This document shows, in pieces, positions 445 to 15,836 of a stretch of 20,743 nucleotides of DNA. The translations under genes were made by a program, and so were the position numbers. The first letter of the stretch is position 1. Each line of letters opens with the position of its first letter. A model generated the notes under the pieces. That model saw nothing but the letters and a program-made list of their open reading frames with translations. It was not told the origin of the DNA and searched no databases. Origin of the DNA: a virus. Location of the stretch: positions 1-20,743 of the IMG/VR virus record IMGVR_UViG_3300028581_002427; one strand, given 5' to 3'.

Positions 445-2520
445 TTACTCTTTATAAAATGCTTGAAATCTAACCACATTTAAAAATTCGGGCGATTTTA
501 TAAGTCCATCGCCACGCCCATTTAGTGATTCCGCTCCTGGTTCGTCTATCACTACAATAGAATCAATATCCTTTGGCACACGGAAACATATTTGCACTGG
601 GAAGTTTACTTTGGCATCGCCTGTAATTACTTTAGTGGAAGCCCGCTGTGTTGCTGCAATTATTCTAAAGCCAGACGAACGGCCCTTTTGCAATAGAATG
701 CGAAGATTTTCTTCTAATGATTTATCCACACCTACACATTCTCGCTTCATTTTCGGCTCACCTGTTTTGTAGTGTCCACAAGTTACGTTGTCATAGCGTT
801 TTAGTTCGTTTCCTTTTCGGCTATTAGCCACAGCATCGGCAAACTCGTCAAATATCACAAGCGTTTTTTGCGAAAATCCATTTTTTACCCTGTCTTCCAT
901 TTCTTCTACAAGTATCATCATTTGTAGTTCAATGTCTTCTATTTCGTTCACAACTATTACATTGCTACTTTGGTAAGCTTTAAACTCATGCTTAGGATCC
1001 ATTATCACTATTTTGTTGAAAACTCCTTGTAGAGCATATTCAATTGTCGATTTCAATGATACTGACTTGCCCGAACCTGTGGCACCGCATACAAGCATGT
1101 GGGGTGTGGAGTGGTTGTTTATATCCCAATACACTATTTGATTGAAATTATCAACACCAATAGGAATTTTGCTACCATCAAGTTTAGATTTATCCCACAC
1201 AAGAGTAGAAGTACTTTTCTTGCCCGATTCTATGGCCAAATAAGATTTACCCTCGTAAACCAAAAGGTCTTTTTGAATACGGACGTTTGGCACATTTAAG
1301 GCATTGGCAATATCAAGCCTGTACTTGTTTATTGCATTGATAGAAGTACCTGCGCTTATGTCTAGCAGATAAGAACTGCTGGAATATCCGTCAAAGATGT
1401 GTTGTACTTTGGTTACTATTCCAAAAGAGCGCAGTACGTGTTCTATTTTTTCTTGATTGGTCATATCTTTATTTGATAAATCGTATGGGATAAATTGTTC
1501 TGTAAATTTTTTGAAGTTTCTCAATACAGTAGGCGTTATACTTGCTATTGATACGTCTCTGATTTTCCGCAACCGCTCCTCTATCATTGGTTTTTTCTTC
1601 TCGGCAATATCAAAGTCGTTAATCTCTGCCAGCATTGTTTTAGCCCAAAAGTCATACAGTTCGGCTTTGTCTGTAAAATTGTCGTTATCGTTAATCAGAT
1701 AAACATAATCAGGATCTCCCACGGCTTGTATCATACGCCTTAGTGGCTCGTATATCATTGCTTCATACAGTCGCCTTGTGCTATCGTCCATAATAGATTT
1801 AAAGCACATCAATTGGGGAGTTTTGTCTTTGTTCTTTGGTATCTTGTTTTCGACAAACCAAACTTCATCAATGCTTTCGCCTGTTTCTTCTTCGTAGCCT
1901 TTTACATAGGATATTGCCTGTTTACCAATGGTGAATCGCAATTCGGAATCATCCGTGAATTTGCTTTTAGACTTGTGATCAATGATTACCGTTTTATCAT
2001 CATTGGTTTTAACCACCAAGTCAATCATTAAGTGTAGCGGGAGTGGTATTTCCACGCCATTGATAGTAACCCACGATGCAAGTTTTACTTCCACTTGTAG
2101 CACCTCTTTTATTTCCGATAGATAAACTTCCACCTCACCCATGAAGTTATTAAGTAATTTTGAAGTACTCATTGTGGCACTCTGTATGCATTCTGCTACT
2201 GTTTGATTTGTTTTTTGAAGTTTCCAAGTATCTGCAGGAATATCATCAATGAATGCAAAGGCCACAGCCTCCAAAGCCACAATGTCGGTAGAAATTCCCT
2301 CTCTTAGGTTCAAAAAGAATGTTTCAAGTGCCTTGTGATACGCTTGTCCGGCTATTGTGGTAGCCGATGATTTACCTCGTATGTTGTAGAGGTACGACAT
2401 TTCAAAATCTTTTTCATTCCTGGCAAACGTTGATACTTTGGAATAGGACCAGGATTCAGTCAGGTAGTTGGAAAGATGTTCTTCCAGCTGTTCGGGGGTA
2501 TAATTTTTATATTTACTCAC
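445..2520 (-). CDS. RecB/Cas4-like PD-(D/E)XK nuclease fused to FtsK-type DNA translocase
   Basis: The 691-aa protein has two recognisable halves. Residues about 24-240 read as a RecB/Cas4-type PD-(D/E)XK nuclease: an N-terminal 'YSK.STF' start, His62 in GQAYHKALE, Asp167 in MIDLVV, the Asp181-His-Lys183 motif, and a following Gln201...Tyr205 motif. Residues about 355-691 read as an FtsK/SpoIIIE motor. An alpha-domain-like stretch (about 358-432) precedes Walker A GATGSGKS (479-486), Walker B LVIFDE (554-559), an AATQRAS sensor-like motif (622-628), and the FtsK-like tail with GAESLNGRGDGL (662-673). Residues about 240-350 form a helical linker. The GTG start overlaps the upstream stop as GTGA, so the two genes are translationally coupled. 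The expected activity is ATP-driven tracking along double-stranded DNA coupled to cleavage, probably in phage recombination or end processing. No FtsK membrane segment or gamma domain is seen. The domain calls are strong; the biological role is inferred. Confidence 0.88.
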   Translation of the reverse strand: MSKYKNYTPEQLEEHLSNYLTESWSYSKVSTFARNEKDFEMSYLYNIRGKSSATTIAGQAYHKALETFFLNLREGISTDIVALEAVAFAFIDDIPADTWKLQKTNQTVAECIQSATMSTSKLLNNFMGEVEVYLSEIKEVLQVEVKLASWVTINGVEIPLPLHLMIDLVVKTNDDKTVIIDHKSKSKFTDDSELRFTIGKQAISYVKGYEEETGESIDEVWFVENKIPKNKDKTPQLMCFKSIMDDSTRRLYEAMIYEPLRRMIQAVGDPDYVYLINDNDNFTDKAELYDFWAKTMLAEINDFDIAEKKKPMIEERLRKIRDVSIASITPTVLRNFKKFTEQFIPYDLSNKDMTNQEKIEHVLRSFGIVTKVQHIFDGYSSSSYLLDISAGTSINAINKYRLDIANALNVPNVRIQKDLLVYEGKSYLAIESGKKSTSTLVWDKSKLDGSKIPIGVDNFNQIVYWDINNHSTPHMLVCGATGSGKSVSLKSTIEYALQGVFNKIVIMDPKHEFKAYQSSNVIVVNEIEDIELQMMILVEEMEDRVKNGFSQKTLVIFDEFADAVANSRKGNELKRYDNVTCGHYKTGEPKMKRECVGVDKSLEENLRILLQKGRSSGFRIIAATQRASTKVITGDAKVNFPVQICFRVPKDIDSIVVIDEPGAESLNGRGDGLIKSPEFLNVVRFQAFYKE

Positions 2521-3347
2521 GGCATTTCAGTTTTAGGGGTTGAGTTTGCTTTTAAATCTTGTTTCTTCTCAATAATATCCTTTTTCTGTTTTGCCTGTTC
2601 TTTTAGCATTTCCACAGTAAGCTCTTTGTCTTTCAGGGAAAGCAGAATACCTGTCAAATCTGCTATATGCTCCGCTGTTACAGCCTCTTTGGTGTTGATG
2701 CCTATTATTTTTATTACATCAGCCTCAAACAAAGCGTAAGTGTCTTTAAACACATTGAATATCCTATTTCGCTCCTTAACAAGTTTTGTAGCATCACTCA
2801 AGTCGCCATGTGCAAATTTGAATGCCTCATCGTAAACCCTATCTATTAATGATTTTGGTATTACTTTCAAAATGGCATTTCTTTCGGCAATGGCCATAAT
2901 TGCCATGGCGTTTGTTTCTATTGTTGATTCATCGTAGCGTGTACCATCCTTTTTTAAAATAGACCTACGAGCCTCTACACATACTGCGTAATTTGTTTCC
3001 ATGTCAAAGGCTACAGCTTCGGCAACAATAGATTTGTGGTCGATTGACTTAATGCGCTGTTGGATTCTGATGTTTCCGTACTGCTGGCAGATAATACGTG
3101 CTAGGTGCACACTAGGCCCGTTTATCATTTTACCACCCACAGGTTTGGCATATCTACATGTTTTAGCAGTGGCCACATTCATAGTAGATATTACTATACT
3201 GTTGTCCAGCACCCGCCTAAGGTTGCGGGGGTACTGTTTGGCGGTGGCTACCTGAGAGTTTATTGATGCTCTCTCTTGGGCTTCAAAAACATCAATTCCT
3301 GTGGTTTCGATAATCTTGATGTCCTCGTCATTAATTTTAGTTTCCAT
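2517..3347 (-). CDS. Conserved phage protein, putative single-strand annealing/recombination protein
   Basis: This 276-aa cytoplasmic protein has a conserved core around residues 55-95, with 'C.YAKPVGGK.INGPSVHLAR', and a second block around 145-166, 'NAMA.MAIAERNAILKVIP'. Phage proteins with this 'GGK..GPS..LA ... RNA.L..IP' pattern are common beside exonuclease and ssDNA-binding genes. By analogy it may be an annealing protein that partners a nuclease, as RecT partners RecE, but I cannot confirm the fold from sequence alone. The C-terminal 50 residues are Lys/Glu/Gln-rich and probably helical or disordered. Its TGA overlaps the GTG of the nuclease-translocase gene, which supports a shared complex or pathway. 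The start is ATG after an A-rich leader. Confidence 0.75.
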   Translation of the reverse strand: METKINDEDIKIIETTGIDVFEAQERASINSQVATAKQYPRNLRRVLDNSIVISTMNVATAKTCRYAKPVGGKMINGPSVHLARIICQQYGNIRIQQRIKSIDHKSIVAEAVAFDMETNYAVCVEARRSILKKDGTRYDESTIETNAMAIMAIAERNAILKVIPKSLIDRVYDEAFKFAHGDLSDATKLVKERNRIFNVFKDTYALFEADVIKIIGINTKEAVTAEHIADLTGILLSLKDKELTVEMLKEQAKQKKDIIEKKQDLKANSTPKTEMP

Positions 3348-3366
3348 TTTGTTTTGCTGTTTTAGT

Positions 3367-3552
3367 TTACTTTATTTTGCTTGTTTTGGGGGTCCATCCG
3401 TTGAGCCTGTACACTTCCGTTTCGGCTTCTTGTTTTGTGGGGAACCAATCTACCTTTTCGCCATAGCTGGAAGTGCCTATGTAGGTCATTTGGTATATGT
3501 TCCAGGAACTGCCTACCTTATCATAAGTATAAAGTGGTTGTATTGTAATCAT
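3367..3552 (-). CDS. Small hypothetical protein, first gene of the recombination module
   Basis: This 61-aa protein lies 19 bases upstream of the 276-aa gene on the same strand and looks like the first cistron after the 619-base gene-free stretch. It is rich in aromatic residues (W17, Y20, Y24, Y30, W36, W53) and ends with 'F.TKQEAETEVYRLNGW'. This layout resembles the 101-aa gene at the other end of the module (aromatic half, then 'TK.EA'), so the two may be distantly related small phage proteins. No function is assigned. The ATG at 3552 follows an AT-rich leader. Confidence 0.6.
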   Translation of the reverse strand: MITIQPLYTYDKVGSSWNIYQMTYIGTSSYGEKVDWFPTKQEAETEVYRLNGWTPKTSKIK

Positions 3553-5095: not shown

Positions 5096-5872
5096 TTAGT
5101 TGGCTTTTAGTATTTCGTGTAAAAATCTTCTTCCATGTTCCGTCCACACGGTTTGGGTGTTGGTTCCGGTAGTGCCATCAGCTTTTGTAAATGTGGTGGT
5201 GTGGCTCTTGGTATATCCATTGCCTACATATTTGGAGTATAGCACCCATTGTCCGTCCACTTTACGCTGTATTTTTAGTTCTGCCAGCTTTTTGTTCATG
5301 GCTATGGCAGTTAGTCCAAGTTCTTGAGCTATGCGAGTGATAACGTATGTTTCGGTGCTTTGCATCACTGTGTCGTAATACGCTGCTTTGGGGGATATGG
5401 CTCGTATTTCCTTTTGCTGTAGTTCGTTTTGCATCTGTAACCGTGCTTTGGCTTCACGCTCTGCCTTTAGGGCCACTAGGGCGTTTATCATGGCATCGGG
5501 GTCGGATATCATTTGCTCCATCATGCTCTCGGTAGAGGTTACACCGTGTTTTAGCAGTTCCTTAATGCGATCGTTACACCACAGTTTGAAGTCTATGTTT
5601 AACCATTGGGCAAAGTCGAGGGCAATGTCTTCGTGTAGCCAAGTGCCAGGATTAACTCCGCCTCTAATTGTTGCAACTAGTTGATTATCATCAATACGGT
5701 TTTTTCTCGCAATGGCTTCAATTAATTCATTTGTGGATGATAATCTCAAATAGTCATTTGGTAGTTTTCCAAACGGCTTAGCCATTTCCGTTGCCGATAT
5801 AAATACTACGCCATTTTCGTTTTTAAAAGTTACAGGCGTGTTGTTGTAGCTGAATATTTGTAGTGCTTCCAT
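5096..5872 (-). CDS. KilA-N / KilAC phage antirepressor
   Basis: This 258-aa protein has an N-terminal KilA-N domain (residues about 5-107). Its signature includes the 'GVVFISATEMAKPFG' strand-helix and 'WLHEDIALDFAQWL....F..WCNDRI' (78-103). A short Glu/Lys/Gln coiled coil follows (about 130-160). The C-terminal half (about 163-258) matches the phage antirepressor KilAC/ANT domain: 'YYDTVMQSTETYVITRIAQELG', a helix-turn-helix with 'AMNKKLAELKIQ', then 'GQWVLYSKY' and 'WTEHGRRFLHEIL'. Such proteins bind DNA or the repressor and switch temperate phages towards lysis. It lies in the operon controlled by the repressor-proximal promoter, as expected for an antirepressor. The ATG at 5872 gives the full KilA-N domain. 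Confidence 0.9.
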   Translation of the reverse strand: MEALQIFSYNNTPVTFKNENGVVFISATEMAKPFGKLPNDYLRLSSTNELIEAIARKNRIDDNQLVATIRGGVNPGTWLHEDIALDFAQWLNIDFKLWCNDRIKELLKHGVTSTESMMEQMISDPDAMINALVALKAEREAKARLQMQNELQQKEIRAISPKAAYYDTVMQSTETYVITRIAQELGLTAIAMNKKLAELKIQRKVDGQWVLYSKYVGNGYTKSHTTTFTKADGTTGTNTQTVWTEHGRRFLHEILKAN

Positions 5873-8435: not shown

Positions 8436-9092
8436 ATGGAATCTACTGTAAAAGAAAGACTTGTGGCGTTTTTAAAAGAAATAAATATAAGCCAAAAAAA
8501 ATTTGAAATAAGTATTGATGTATCTAATGGCTATGTTAATAATATAAGACAATCAATTCAACCAGATAAAATACAGAGAATATCTCTAACATATCCATAT
8601 TTAAATACTGGCTGGCTTTTAACTGGTCAAGGCGAAATGTTGAACAGCGAAAAAGTGGCAACTCCCCCCTCTCCCCCCACTTCCAAATTAGGCGTACCGA
8701 TTATTCCTTTCGAGGCAATAGCAGGTTATAATGGTCACGATAACGAGGGCATAGGCATAGAGCAGTGCGAGCGTTACATAGTGCCGGAGTTCGACACCAT
8801 GGGCGTGGAGTTTATCGTGCGGGTGAGTGGCAGTAGCATGTACCCTAAGTACAGCAATGGGGATTTGCTGGCGTGCCGTAAAATACGCGAGATAGTTTTC
8901 TTTCAGTGGGGCAAGGTGTATGTTATAGATGGGTCGCAGGGAGTGATGGTAAAACGCATTTTTGAGGATTCCATGCGTGAGGATTACATAATGTGCGTGA
9001 GCGATAACAAGGAGCACTACCCCGCATTCTCCATCCCCAAAACGGACATCCGCAGTTTGAGTATTGTATTGGGGGTTATTAGGACGGAATAA
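8436..9092 (+). CDS. CI/LexA-like phage repressor (HTH plus S24 peptidase)
   Basis: The 218-aa protein has an N-terminal helix-turn-helix (residues about 4-67) and a Pro/Ser/Thr linker (about 74-84). Its C-terminal S24 peptidase domain (about 88-218) contains the cleavage-type dipeptide Ala96-Gly97, nucleophile Ser134 in SGSSMYP, and general base Lys173 in VMVKRIF. Such repressors bind operators as dimers and cut themselves when RecA is activated by DNA damage, releasing the lytic genes. It is divergent from the early operon across an operator-bearing gap, the classic switch layout. Base composition changes sharply between the two domains, being A+T-rich before about 8640 and much richer in G+C after, which suggests domain shuffling. 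Self-cleavage is inferred from motifs. Confidence 0.93.
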   Translation: MESTVKERLVAFLKEINISQKKFEISIDVSNGYVNNIRQSIQPDKIQRISLTYPYLNTGWLLTGQGEMLNSEKVATPPSPPTSKLGVPIIPFEAIAGYNGHDNEGIGIEQCERYIVPEFDTMGVEFIVRVSGSSMYPKYSNGDLLACRKIREIVFFQWGKVYVIDGSQGVMVKRIFEDSMREDYIMCVSDNKEHYPAFSIPKTDIRSLSIVLGVIRTE

Positions 9093-9930: not shown

Positions 9931-9976
9931 CCAAAACAAAACAAAATAGAAAGCAAACTAAAAAAAATAACCCTTT

Positions 9977-10576
9977 TTATCTACATTTAACCCTCAAAAG
10001 CCAAACCCAAAATTTATGCCTTGATTTCCATTCCAAAAAGCAATTGTAATCAGTATTGAGATTTTTATAATAATCAATAAGGTCTTTTTTTGATTCCACC
10101 TCTTCCTGTGCAATTGCGTATTTACATTGGTAAGTATAAGCCAAACTGGAATACTCTTGCGCCTCTATGTCAAGGCTATTAATTAAGCTGTCTTTTGACC
10201 ATATTACGATGTTTTTATGCATTATGGTACTATCGCAACCCTCAATGGTTTTTTGCCTGTTGTAGCGTTCCTCTGCGCTGTCTGCTCGTTCGGTTGCTAA
10301 CCTTACAGCATCACTAAATTTTTCAGTCAAACGCTTTTGAACTTTCAACCTCAATGAATCCACTTTCAAAATGCTATCCTTTTGGTATTGCAACTGTAAT
10401 GAATGAATCGCTTTCAAACTGTCCTCGTTCAGTTTCTGAATCAGAATAGTCCTTGGCTGGTCTTTCAGCAGATCGTCTTTTTGTGTGAAATAGGTTTGTT
10501 TAATTGCATAGCCTATTGACGCTATTATTACAAATAGAAATATGTATTTCAATAAAATTATAAATATATTATTCAT
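9977..10576 (-). CDS. Membrane-anchored coiled-coil protein, candidate Rz-like inner-membrane spanin
   Basis: This 199-aa protein has an N-terminal membrane anchor (residues about 4-25, FIILLKYIFLFVIIASIGYAI) followed by a long helical region rich in Lys, Gln, Asp, Ser and Leu (about 45-115). After a short Cys-containing turn (GCDST, about 112-116) there is a second helix (about 125-172) and an aromatic/basic end. One anchor plus a long periplasmic coiled coil is the layout of Rz-type spanins, which complete lysis in Gram-negative hosts. It is the last gene of the late operon, after the endolysin and holin-like genes but separated from them by the 704-aa structural gene. No o-spanin lipoprotein gene is visible nearby. 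Role by position and shape only. Confidence 0.55.
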   Translation of the reverse strand: MNNIFIILLKYIFLFVIIASIGYAIKQTYFTQKDDLLKDQPRTILIQKLNEDSLKAIHSLQLQYQKDSILKVDSLRLKVQKRLTEKFSDAVRLATERADSAEERYNRQKTIEGCDSTIMHKNIVIWSKDSLINSLDIEAQEYSSLAYTYQCKYAIAQEEVESKKDLIDYYKNLNTDYNCFLEWKSRHKFWVWLLRVKCR

Positions 10577-10591
10577 TTTTAAAACGTTTAT

Positions 10592-10627
10592 AATTTTGGT
10601 CGTCTCATTTATAAGACGACCAAAATT
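10592..10627. repeat. 14-bp perfect inverted repeat between late genes
   Basis: AATTTTGGTCGTCT (10592-10605) and AGACGACCAAAATT (10614-10627) pair perfectly around an eight-base loop. It lies 16 bases upstream of the Rz-like gene start. There is no strong U-run, so it may stabilise or attenuate the mRNA rather than terminate it. Confidence 0.6.
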
Positions 10628-10657
10628 AATTAAAAAAAATATGTCGCTCTTGTCTTT

Positions 10658-10690
10658 AAGTCCCCCTTTCGGGGGATTTAGGGGGCTTTA
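10658..10690. repeat. C/G-rich palindromic repeat at the end of the 704-aa gene
   Basis: TCCCCC (10661-10666) pairs with GGGGGA (10671-10676) around TTTC. A second GGGGG block follows (10681-10685) with CTTTA, which can alternatively pair with the TAAG-side CCCCC. The gene's TAA (10690-10688) lies inside it. It resembles the short palindromic units found between genes in many Bacteroidetes chromosomes and may act as a mild terminator or mRNA-end structure. Confidence 0.5.
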
Positions 10691-12802
10691 CGGTGCTACA
10701 TGTCCATTCACATTCACATACACCCCACCTGTAACAGCAGTACGAGTTTGAATACTCATAGCAGTAGCCACAGTACCTTTAAGTGGAATGTCAAAATGAA
10801 TGTTTTGCGGAGCATTGGCAGTGCCTAGTATTCCCGCCCAAAGCACTTTGTGCAATGTGGCTGTAACTGAACTACCACTTATAGCCAATGTAGAACCACC
10901 ACGAGTAGATGATAATGTAAGCGTAGTACTTGATGGCACTGTAAGCACATAATAACTTTGACCAGCAGTTAAACCAGTAACGCCCGATGCTGTAACGTGT
11001 ACCAAATCGCCCACTGACAAACCGTGTGTGCCAGTAGTGAGTGTATTGCTGGAAATAGTTTGAGAACCAGCACTAATATCCGCATCACGTACAGCTAGTT
11101 CCGTAGCGGCTCCAAGTGTACCGGTACTAAGTTGGATATTGTTCACATAATTACGCAAACCAGCACCCGCACTCTCTTTGATTACAAGTGGCGTGGTAGT
11201 ATTTACCAATCCATTAGCCAATGGCACAGTGCTCCAGCATAACTCAGATGGTGCAAAAGGTTTCATAATTGTACGCCCAATAAGGTCTAATACAATTTGT
11301 GAAATTTTACCCGTAGTAGTTGCCGCCCATGCCGTAAGAGCAACACCAGCAGTATTTATAAATTTAGTTACACTACCACCATGAGTATCTACTGGAACTA
11401 CGGATATATTTACAGCCTTTACCAAATCAACTGGCAATGCATTCATCAAACTACTAACACCCGCACTGGCAATTTCTACCATTTCGGAATTGTTTTGATT
11501 CACCTCAAAAAAACTGAAAGTACAAGTAGTATTACTTGCTGGTGCAGTTGCTAAGTTTTTTAGGCGAATAAACAAGTAAAAGTTAGCTCCCAAAACATCA
11601 GGTATTTCCTTGTTACGCTCACCACGTGGCGAAGTACCTGTTGTACTATTTGCTGACCAATCTCCAAAACTTATGTTACCACGTTTTACTTGCAATCTGT
11701 ACTCGTTTGGTGTACCAGCAGTAGTAATTACGGTAACTGGTGCTGGTGCATCCCACACATTGCGGAAAGTTGAAAATCTGGCATTGGTAGTACTTGTACC
11801 GTTGAATTTTAGTTCAATGGCAGAGTTATAAGCGAAATAAGTAATAGTAGCAGTAGCACCAACACCTCCCACACATGCAAATGTAAATGTATTGTCAGTG
11901 GTAGAAATAATTCTCACGCTGGTAGGGAGAATAGATGCATCACTACTTGTTAGAATCTGCAATTCTTGCCCTGGTAAGTGTCCGTGTGCATCTTCCGTTA
12001 CTGTGGCTATTTGTCCGCTAATGGCGCAAGGTCTACCCACTTCATTTTCCGAAACTTCGTAAAGTCCTACCGTAAGCTCACAGTTGGCAATACGTTGGCT
12101 CATGTGTAGCCCAAAAGTCATATCTAAAGTACCGGTAAATGTACAAGCGGATTTGATAACCGTTTCGCTATTTGGCGTTATACCGCTCAATAGTTGTAAG
12201 TTGCTAATATCTTGCCCGTAACTAAACACACCACTTGATACACCAGCATTTAAACATGAGAATGTAAATGTATCTGTACCTGTAACTGTTACCAATACGG
12301 TAGAGTAGATAATGGCAAGTTCATCGGGAGTGTACAAAATAGTAATCAGATCGCCAGTAACCAATCCGTGTGCCACAACAGTAGCAGTGGCTGTAGTGGT
12401 GGAGCGTGTCCAAGTACCATCACGTTTTACACTTCCTACTCTCACGGTTTGCCCTGGTCCCGTTTGCAATACTTCAAAGTAATCGGTGTTCAGCTGCGAA
12501 CCCCCAAAACCATGTCGCCACATACCTTGTATGTTTTTGGTCAAACAATCTGGATTTTCGGCAAAGAAATCCTTTACCGATGTAATAAACTCATCCAGCG
12601 TGGCATATTTGTCGCCAGCTGCATTTTTGGCAATATCGGTAACTTTCAACCCAATATAAGGGTCAATCCTTGTGTAGTAATCTACCGGAATCAAATCAAT
12701 AGTTTCCCCATTATATTTGGGGAAATACGTTTTAGTAGGCATGAAAGATTTTGAGGTCGAACCCAACACCCAACTATTGCCTGCTTTAAAAAAATAGATC
12801 AT
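10688..12802 (-). CDS. Phage structural protein with three 'HGL' beta repeats
   Basis: This 704-aa, Ser/Thr/Gly/Ala-rich, beta-type protein is typical of tail or fibre components. Residues 1-110 form a distinct head. Three related units follow: 'ATVVAHGLVTGDLITI ... GTDTFTFSC' (about 140-184), 'ATVTEDAHGHLPGQELQI ... TDNTFTFAC' (266-310), and 'TLTTGTHGLSVGDLVHV ... STTLTLSST' (587-633). The C-terminal domain reads 'LRNYVNNIQL...ATELAVRDA' (549-573), then resumes after the third repeat with 'VLWAGILG ... GGVYVNVNGHV' (653-702). The third repeat therefore appears inserted into a fold whose two halves are elsewhere contiguous in my recollection of this domain. It sits between the endolysin and the Rz-like gene. 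Virion location is inferred. Confidence 0.75.
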   Translation of the reverse strand: MIYFFKAGNSWVLGSTSKSFMPTKTYFPKYNGETIDLIPVDYYTRIDPYIGLKVTDIAKNAAGDKYATLDEFITSVKDFFAENPDCLTKNIQGMWRHGFGGSQLNTDYFEVLQTGPGQTVRVGSVKRDGTWTRSTTTATATVVAHGLVTGDLITILYTPDELAIIYSTVLVTVTGTDTFTFSCLNAGVSSGVFSYGQDISNLQLLSGITPNSETVIKSACTFTGTLDMTFGLHMSQRIANCELTVGLYEVSENEVGRPCAISGQIATVTEDAHGHLPGQELQILTSSDASILPTSVRIISTTDNTFTFACVGGVGATATITYFAYNSAIELKFNGTSTTNARFSTFRNVWDAPAPVTVITTAGTPNEYRLQVKRGNISFGDWSANSTTGTSPRGERNKEIPDVLGANFYLFIRLKNLATAPASNTTCTFSFFEVNQNNSEMVEIASAGVSSLMNALPVDLVKAVNISVVPVDTHGGSVTKFINTAGVALTAWAATTTGKISQIVLDLIGRTIMKPFAPSELCWSTVPLANGLVNTTTPLVIKESAGAGLRNYVNNIQLSTGTLGAATELAVRDADISAGSQTISSNTLTTGTHGLSVGDLVHVTASGVTGLTAGQSYYVLTVPSSTTLTLSSTRGGSTLAISGSSVTATLHKVLWAGILGTANAPQNIHFDIPLKGTVATAMSIQTRTAVTGGVYVNVNGHVAP

Positions 12803-14410: not shown

Positions 14411-14734
14411 ATGAATATAAAATTTGAAGATTCAGCATTAGAGGAATTGTTCACAAATGGAAAAACCTCCAATAAGAAGTATAAAAAACTTCAACCACAG
14501 GTTATAAAGCAATTTATTAAAGCTGTAAATTATTTGCGTGCAGCAAATAGGATTGAGGATTTGTATAAATTTAAAAGCCTGAATTACGAAAAGAAAAGCG
14601 GTGATTTAAAAGATATTGAAGCCGTATGGATAAATGAACAATATCGCTTACTTTTTCAAAGCTCTCCTTTAGGCGATTCATTAATTATAACAGAGGTATC
14701 AATACTTGAAATATCAAAACACTATGACGACTAA
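14411..14734 (+). CDS. higB: HigB/RelE-family toxin
   Basis: This 107-aa protein follows the HigB pattern of the RelE superfamily. It has an N-terminal helical pair with Lys-rich linker, 'LYKFKSLNYEKKSGDLKDIEAVWINEQYRLLFQ' (about 52-84), then 'IITEVSILEISKHYDD'. That corresponds to the usual 'L..L..EKL.GDLKG..S..IN.QYR..F.....I...I.EI.DYH'. RelE-type toxins cut mRNA at the ribosome and stall growth. The gene opens a rightward operon whose second gene is an antitoxin-type regulator and overlaps it by 11 bases. Toxin-first order is typical of higBA. It may stabilise the prophage or exclude other phages. Confidence 0.87.
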   Translation: MNIKFEDSALEELFTNGKTSNKKYKKLQPQVIKQFIKAVNYLRAANRIEDLYKFKSLNYEKKSGDLKDIEAVWINEQYRLLFQSSPLGDSLIITEVSILEISKHYDD

Positions 14735-15836
14735 AACCAATATAAACCAACTTATTCCATTTACTGCAACTCATCCAGGCGAATTACTTAAAGATGAGTT
14801 GAAAGATCGTGGAATGTCTCAAAAAGAACTATCTCTTATTACAGATATGCCAGCATCTGTTATCAATGATATTATTAAGGGTAAAAGAAATATATCAGCA
14901 GAATTAGCAGTTTTGTTAGAATCTGTTTTGGAAACTCCTGCTACTTTTTGGATGAATTTGCAAACACAGTACGAAATTGATTTGGCAAATATCAATGAAA
15001 AGGTAGTGAGAAAAAAGAAAGAGATTGCAATATGGGAAGTGGTATCCGAATTTGTACCAGTTAAAATTTTCAGAAAGTTAGGTGTCATCAATGATAATCT
15101 TTCTGAATCAATAAATAAAATTTGGGAAATTTTCAGAGTTTCTACTGTGGATGAATTAATAAATTCGTACTCTAATGAGCCAAATATTGCATTGTATAAA
15201 AAATCAGAGAAACTTGAAACATTTCCTGTTAATTTGTTTGGCTGGAAAAATCTTGCAATTTGGGAATCAAATAAAATAAACTTATCATCACCATTTAATT
15301 CGGATAATGAAACTAAAATTATCGAAGAACTTAATGCCATATTTTACAAAAATACAGACACAATAAAAAATGTTACTGAAGTTCTAAATAATTATGGAGT
15401 TAAATTTTTGATACTTGGAAAATTTGATAAAATGCCAGTAGATGGATTATCATTTTGGCATGGAGAAAACCCAACAATTGTACTGACAATTAGAATGAAA
15501 AATATCGACAATTTTGCATTTTGTATCATGCACGAATTAGCACATATTGTAAATCATTTATCAAAAAATAACAGTCAAGAGTTAGTAAACATTGATGGAT
15601 TCCATTCTGAAATAGAAACAGAAGCCAATGTTTATGCACAAAACGCTTTGATTCCAAATGATATTTGGAAAGCGTTTATGAAATCAATGTCTGCAATTAA
15701 CCCTTATGCTATTCAAAGTAAAATTAAAACATTATCAAGTAATTATAAAATTAATGAGGCAATAGCATTGGGTTTATATAAACACGAAATGAATTGTTTT
15801 TCTATTAAAACAGATTTTCAAAGAGAAATTTGCTAA
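14724..15836 (+). CDS. higA: HigA-type antitoxin fused to an ImmA/IrrE-like zinc peptidase
   Basis: The ATG at 14724 is chosen over the TTG at 14706; it lies 11 bases before the end of the toxin gene and gives 370 aa. Residues about 12-75 form a HigA-like XRE helix-turn-helix: 'THPGELLKDELKDRGMSQKELS', then 'GKRNISAELAVLLE', then 'TPATFWMNLQ'. The remainder ends in a zinc peptidase-like domain with His-Glu-Leu-Ala-His at 270-274 and 'ETEANVYAQNALIP' at about 298-311 (third ligand Glu). ImmA/IrrE-type proteases cleave repressors or antitoxins. The long two-domain antitoxin is known among Bacteroidetes and other phyla. The HTH domain would bind the 32-base palindrome upstream. Strong A+T richness suggests transfer from another source. 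Confidence 0.88.
   Translation: MTTKTNINQLIPFTATHPGELLKDELKDRGMSQKELSLITDMPASVINDIIKGKRNISAELAVLLESVLETPATFWMNLQTQYEIDLANINEKVVRKKKEIAIWEVVSEFVPVKIFRKLGVINDNLSESINKIWEIFRVSTVDELINSYSNEPNIALYKKSEKLETFPVNLFGWKNLAIWESNKINLSSPFNSDNETKIIEELNAIFYKNTDTIKNVTEVLNNYGVKFLILGKFDKMPVDGLSFWHGENPTIVLTIRMKNIDNFAFCIMHELAHIVNHLSKNNSQELVNIDGFHSEIETEANVYAQNALIPNDIWKAFMKSMSAINPYAIQSKIKTLSSNYKINEAIALGLYKHEMNCFSIKTDFQREIC

Follow-up and report, generated by a model that had tools for sequence, protein, structure and literature searches.

A RecB-type nuclease fused to an FtsK motor in Bacteroidota phages is paired with annealing proteins of unrelated families that end in a common C-terminal peptide

The window analysed here is the whole 20,743-nucleotide stretch of the IMG/VR viral record IMGVR_UViG_3300028581_002427. 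On the minus strand of this 20.7-kb viral contig, an ORF at positions 445-2520 begins with a GTG start codon and encodes a protein of 691 aa, in which a nuclease is fused to an FtsK motor. The upstream gene, which encodes a putative annealing protein (SSAP), shares 4 nt with it, confirming the GTGA coupling proposed in the initial annotation. The features of the locus are as follows.

445..2520 (-): nuclease-FtsK fusion gene; ORF with PF12705, PF17854 and PF01580 matches, about 100 full-length relatives and an AlphaFold2 model
1627..2460 (-): RecB-type PD-(D/E)XK nuclease domain, residues about 21-298; PF12705, AdnA and 3l0a structure matches, conserved catalytic residues
1228..1464 (-): FtsK alpha domain, residues 353-431; PF17854 (E 8.4e-8), structure match from residue about 353
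448..1203 (-): FtsK motor (beta) domain, residues about 440-691, without gamma; PF01580, match to 2ius (Z 33.3)
1063..1086 (-): Walker A GATGSGKS, residues 479-486; from the sequence, near-invariant in the alignment
841..852 (-): Walker B FDEF, residues 557-560; from the sequence, Glu559 invariant and the other positions near-invariant
2517..2520 (-): GTGA start/stop overlap coupling the fusion and partner genes; from the sequence
2517..3347 (-): partner annealing protein of the phrog_3657 family, 276 aa, predicted Rad52-like fold; phrog_3657 match, model and structure list
2520..2567 (-): C-terminal tail of the partner, KKQDLKANSTPKTEMP, proposed docking peptide; same ending in unrelated partner families, absent away from the fusion

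Elsewhere in the window, Pfam identified an S24 (LexA/CI-like) repressor at 8436-9092 (+) and a KilA-N/ANT antirepressor at 5096-5872 (-), which suggest that the window belongs to a temperate phage. Positions 14411-15836 (+) encode a HigB-like toxin and, after it, an HTH protein that resembles an antitoxin and carries an IrrE/M78 peptidase domain.

The ORF had been read as a single-chain fusion of a PD-(D/E)XK nuclease with an FtsK translocase. Through profile searches, we found that the nuclease, the FtsK alpha domain and the FtsK motor each scored above their own Pfam curated cut-offs in one chain, and that about 100 relatives conserve this arrangement. PF12705 (PDDEXK_1) matched residues 23-231 (E 1e-9; 39.2 bits, cut-off 22). 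In the AlphaFold2 model of the fusion (pLDDT 87.9, pTM 0.76), the N-terminal half matched the nuclease domain of AdnA over model residues 11-294 and the putative exonuclease 3l0a over residues 20-297, both with Z 16.2, and Foldseek also returned Dna2 and Argonaute-associated Cas4-like proteins. The catalytic residues His62, Asp167, Asp181-x-Lys183, Gln201 and Tyr205 were all found at the positions assigned to them previously; Asp167, Asp181, Lys183 and Gln201 are invariant across a 103-sequence alignment, and His62 and Tyr205 are conserved at 90% or more. By fold and active-site residues, the N-terminal half is a RecB-type PD-(D/E)XK (PF12705) nuclease domain. The additional label 'Cas4-type' had to be withdrawn, because no cysteine occurs among the invariant or at least 90% conserved columns of the nuclease half in the same alignment, so that the conserved cysteines for an iron-sulphur cluster are lacking. 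The four-cysteine signature of the Cas4 and AddB-type Fe-S nucleases is thus missing from this domain.

In the motor half, PF17854 (FtsK_alpha) matched residues 353-431 (E 8.4e-8) and PF01580 (FtsK_SpoIIIE) matched residues 451-554 (E 3e-10), both above the curated cut-offs. The alpha-like domain, Walker A (GATGSGKS), Walker B (FDEF) and GAESL motifs of the initial annotation were all recovered. The model superimposed on E. coli FtsK (2ius) with Z 33.3 and an rmsd of 2.3 over 303 residues, at 31% structure-based identity. With its alpha domain, its RecA-like motor carrying Walker A/B, and GAESL, this half resembles the FtsK/SpoIIIE translocases and can be classed with them; it differs in that no Pfam match to the gamma (KOPS-reading) domain was found in the fusion, whose motor forms the C-terminal end of the protein, and in that a nuclease replaces the N-terminal membrane part. 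The stretch modelled with the lowest confidence, residues about 300-350 between the nuclease and the alpha domain, may be a flexible tether. A beta-hairpin insert of about 35 residues (window 769-730, minus strand; residues about 574-598) separates Walker B of the fusion from the next helix; E. coli FtsK lacks this insert in the alignment, and it is a candidate site of DNA or partner contact.

A search with the single sequence gave nine close relatives, and their alignment in turn detected 75 loci in viral sequences and about 33 in genomes. The roughly 100 full-length relatives share 44-77% identity and lie in viral contigs and prophages, which rules out an assembly artefact or a chance fusion of frames; among the loci examined (designated L and a number), the fusion of L010/L071 is split by a frameshift. 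The hosts are nearly all Bacteroidota, including the prophage carriers Chitinophaga tropicalis, Flavobacterium fluvii and Flavihumibacter petaseus, with one distant member in Puniceicoccaceae, and a few MAGs that carry the fusion under other labels may be mis-binned. Among the cultured phages of INPHARED (50,697 phage records) there was no full-length match, only FtsK halves being matched, and the 346-aa N-terminal part had no match there at E 0.01. No match spanning 80% of the fusion was present in 72,556 plasmids. In genome samples of 395 Bacteroidota and 289 Verrucomicrobiota, only the seed genomes were matched; the fusion is therefore a rare accessory gene of phages and prophages. No paper describing it was found in a literature search that covered subscription journals thinly, and it may be mentioned in the 2004 FtsK-HerA survey by Iyer et al.

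The partner gene of the window matched phrog_3657 (E 2.3e-41), a family annotated as 'unknown function'. Its model (pLDDT 87.6) gave a structure list led by Rad52 (Z 8.3), Sak (Z 6.5) and Mgm101 (Z 6.2), which are moderate scores, and the top Foldseek match was lambda Red-beta (E 0.02). Since the model best matches these annealing proteins, with a predicted Rad52/RecT-type fold at moderate scores, the partner is very probably an SSAP, and phrog_3657 thereby receives a probable function. The earlier proposal of an annealing partner thus holds as far as fold and genomic slot go, while no sequence-family match identifies the protein as an SSAP.

A survey of the neighbours showed that the fusion lies, as had been proposed, in a recombination operon next to an annealing protein gene, and that almost every locus has an SSAP slot upstream. 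Of 109 non-redundant loci, 105 have a gene of 100 aa or more immediately upstream, and in 66 of these 105 it overlaps the fusion by 4 nt. Clustering of the full upstream sequences merged families, and it was repeated without the last 45 residues. The resulting clusters were phrog_3657 (31), RecT (22), Sak4-like (18), the RecT-like phrog_561 (11), an unrecognised cluster (8), ERF (7), phrog_15333 (2) and Rad52 (2), plus single cases, so that recognised partners include RecT, phrog_561, ERF, Rad52 and Sak4-like members. An inserted gene or gap separates the SSAP from the fusion in L042, L044, L073 and L092, and L013 has no SSAP in the stretch examined. On the tree of the fusion, the SSAP family switches at least 33 times; in the pair L019/L020, the fusion DNA is about 97% identical and the SSAP gene has been swapped for one of another family. 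With an exonuclease gene adjoining an SSAP gene, the locus has the make-up of an SSAP-EXO module.

These unrelated partners end alike. Among 99 distinct SSAP tails beside the fusion, 75 end in [LM]P and 97 have Leu or Met second-last; the typical ending is K-x-[ED]-[LM]-P, with Glu or Asp before [LM] in about half and Lys as the commonest residue at -5. Other closely coupled genes of the same loci end in [LM]P in only 3 of 159 cases (Fisher p about 1e-39 against the SSAP tails). Members of three partner families (mostly phrog_3657 and Sak4-like) that occur elsewhere in viral contigs served as a natural control: beside the fusion, [LM]P ends 26 of 30 distinct tails, against none of 119 away from it (p 4e-25), and [LM] is second-last in 30/30 and 10/119, respectively. 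Because these p-values assume independence among tails of which many are related, the repeated exchange of SSAPs seen on the tree carries more weight. A profile of the fusion-adjacent phrog_3657 tails did not find the fusion-adjacent Sak4-like tails significantly; the case for the tail therefore rests on the statistics of its ending, the tail being too short for profile methods. The RecT of L031 is without the common tail. By the sequence comparisons, the tail could be shown to follow the fusion rather than the fold of the SSAP. We regard this exchangeable partner, with unrelated SSAP families bearing one C-terminal peptide, as the most informative feature of the system; it was absent from the initial annotation. 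The SSAP slot and the common tail are also seen in L052:3457-4200 and L094:1985-2716, both from the unrecognised cluster (n=8), and in the singleton L045:4183-5001, and by slot and tail alone these proteins may be undescribed SSAPs.

Sequence comparison thus establishes that nuclease and motor are fused with their catalytic motifs intact, that the pairing with an SSAP gene is conserved although the SSAP family has been exchanged many times, and that the tail is associated with the fusion. We propose, with a probability of roughly 0.7, that the fusion is the ATP-driven dsDNA-end resection exonuclease of a Red/RecET-like SSAP-EXO module and recruits any annealing protein that bears the docking tail; its activity, hexamerisation and tail binding are the parts that we infer. 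The FtsK half would form a ring on a phage dsDNA end, possibly the hexamer with six nuclease sites envisaged in the initial annotation. ATP hydrolysis would then move the duplex, while the RecB-type nuclease, placed N-terminal to the alpha domain, would degrade one strand and leave ssDNA. The adjoining annealing protein, held by its tail, would be loaded onto this ssDNA and anneal it to homologous DNA. The putative docking tail would consist of a basic segment, a linker and K-x-[ED]-[LM]-P-COOH.

Could the common ending be a by-product of gene overlap, or a remnant of SSAP swaps, carrying no docking signal? The tail adjoins the start of the fusion, and where the genes overlap by 4 nt (ATGA), the final codon must have A as its third base. 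However, the second-last Leu is written with all six codons across the tails, and [LM]P is retained in non-overlapping genes with gaps of 47 and 78 nt. These two observations indicate, at the level of sequence, that the ending is selected as protein. Moreover, other overlapping gene pairs in the same loci end in [LMI]P in only 2 of 72 cases, and the L019/L020 swap took the tail DNA along while the protein ending was kept (VDQKKETMRQSKGKNKEDMP and VKSKKEKMKSSKSKRDSMP are alike, their DNA clearly different). A by-product is therefore very improbable. The tail could also bind a protein other than the fusion. SSB proteins end in D-[IL]-P-F, which [ED]-[LM]-P resembles without its Phe, and the tail might mimic this C-terminus and recruit a host SSB-binding protein instead; but the terminal Phe is missing, P being last in 75/99 tails, and the ending is found only beside the fusion, which makes such mimicry unlikely, though less so than a by-product.

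Other roles for the fusion itself have to be weighed in the same way. As a packaging or segregation motor, its FtsK ring would pump phage DNA, its nuclease would trim it, and the SSAP neighbour would be incidental. DNA of internal-membrane viruses is packaged by FtsK/HerA-type ATPases (PMC7824862), and one terminase profile, phrog_2666, matches the ATPase of the fusion weakly (E 4e-9). Yet 16 of 25 tested host contigs carry a terminase large subunit of their own (few families were tested in the others), and the gene sits in an exonuclease slot with an SSAP neighbour in nearly all loci. The packaging-linked role that had been suggested for this protein is accordingly disfavoured, and we consider it the least likely of the alternatives. 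Hardly more can be said for an anti-phage or counter-defence nuclease-ATPase like SIR2-HerA or DUF4297-HerA: the motor is structurally related to HerA defence ATPases, and the PADLOC models mad8, SspH and HerA match it, but the PADLOC matches are confined to the ATPase. Moreover, the gene conserved next to the fusion encodes an annealing protein, and the fusion takes the place of a YqaJ exonuclease beside the same SSAP families.

The proposed resection exonuclease resembles several known systems. As in lambda Red (Exo/Red-beta), RecE/RecT and YqaJ/RecT, an annealing protein adjoins an exonuclease in the same slot, and the SSAP C-terminus is the likely contact; the C-terminal domain of Red-beta binds lambda Exo (PMC8303780). 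In contrast to these modules, the exonuclease here bears its own FtsK motor, and one exonuclease family is combined with seven or more SSAP sequence families, probably by way of a short peptide at the SSAP terminus and not of a folded domain. HerA-NurA likewise combines a pumping ATPase with a nuclease acting on dsDNA ends (PMC9960219, PMC12977600), whereas the fusion is a single chain with a RecB-type PF12705 nuclease, and its motor is nearer to FtsK than to HerA (Z 33 and 20). It therefore does not belong to HerA-NurA, with its separate HerA hexamer and NurA subunits. With AdnAB, AddAB and RecBCD, the fusion shares the RecB-type nuclease domain (AdnA Z 16.2) and the proposed order of resection followed by loading of a recombination protein, but its dsDNA-translocating motor is of the FtsK type, where those enzymes have an SF1 helicase, and its partner is an annealing protein instead of RecA. 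An exonuclease with its own FtsK motor, and one exonuclease serving many SSAP families via a common C-terminal peptide, both appear to be novel.

Away from the fusion, the SSAPs often adjoin YqaJ-type exonucleases (of the members tested, one matched PF09588 and another matched it weakly). In the viral loci L164-L326, SSAPs beside 'FRCSS' and 'TSS' YqaJ-like exonucleases carry other C-terminal modules, again common to unrelated families. A profile of phrog_3657 tails from beside 'FRCSS' exonucleases picked up the tails of RecT proteins that adjoin this type (E 7e-22), and a tail profile from beside 'TSS' exonucleases picked up Sak4-like tails next to 'TSS' exonucleases, with E values to about 5e-14. 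Since the exonuclease types were assigned by short motifs, this matching is preliminary, but among RecT, phrog_3657 and Sak4-like proteins the tail generally seems to go with the type of exonuclease. We consider it reasonably probable that phage annealing proteins possess a portable C-terminal code that specifies the partner and moves independently of the fold, in which K-x-[ED]-[LM]-P-COOH would fit many SSAP families to an FtsK-driven resection machine, and small helical modules would be matched to particular YqaJ-like exonucleases. The principle of such a tail has precedent, while a short peptide and a motor-nuclease partner appear to be new.

If the proposed mechanism is true, one chain combining motor and end-resection nuclease would be a minimal analogue of RecBCD or HerA-NurA, with annealing proteins replacing RecA, and would provide a recombination engine native to Bacteroidota phages. 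A recognised limit of recombineering is that foreign SSAP-exonuclease pairs recombine dsDNA inefficiently (PMC8093625), and the SSAP tail, if its role is true, would give a testable rule for which annealing protein fits which exonuclease.

Two further observations were made at the loci of relatives. Near the fusion in the viral contig L007, positions 9975-12716 encode a protein of 913 aa that looks like Cas9, having an HNH_4 domain and a segment rich in arginine. In L020, at about 2606-3430 (aligned with L024:3040-3335), overlapping BLAST matches are stepped by 24 bases, a pattern that points to an array of 24-bp tandem repeats lying upstream of the SSAP gene and differing in length between L020 and L024.
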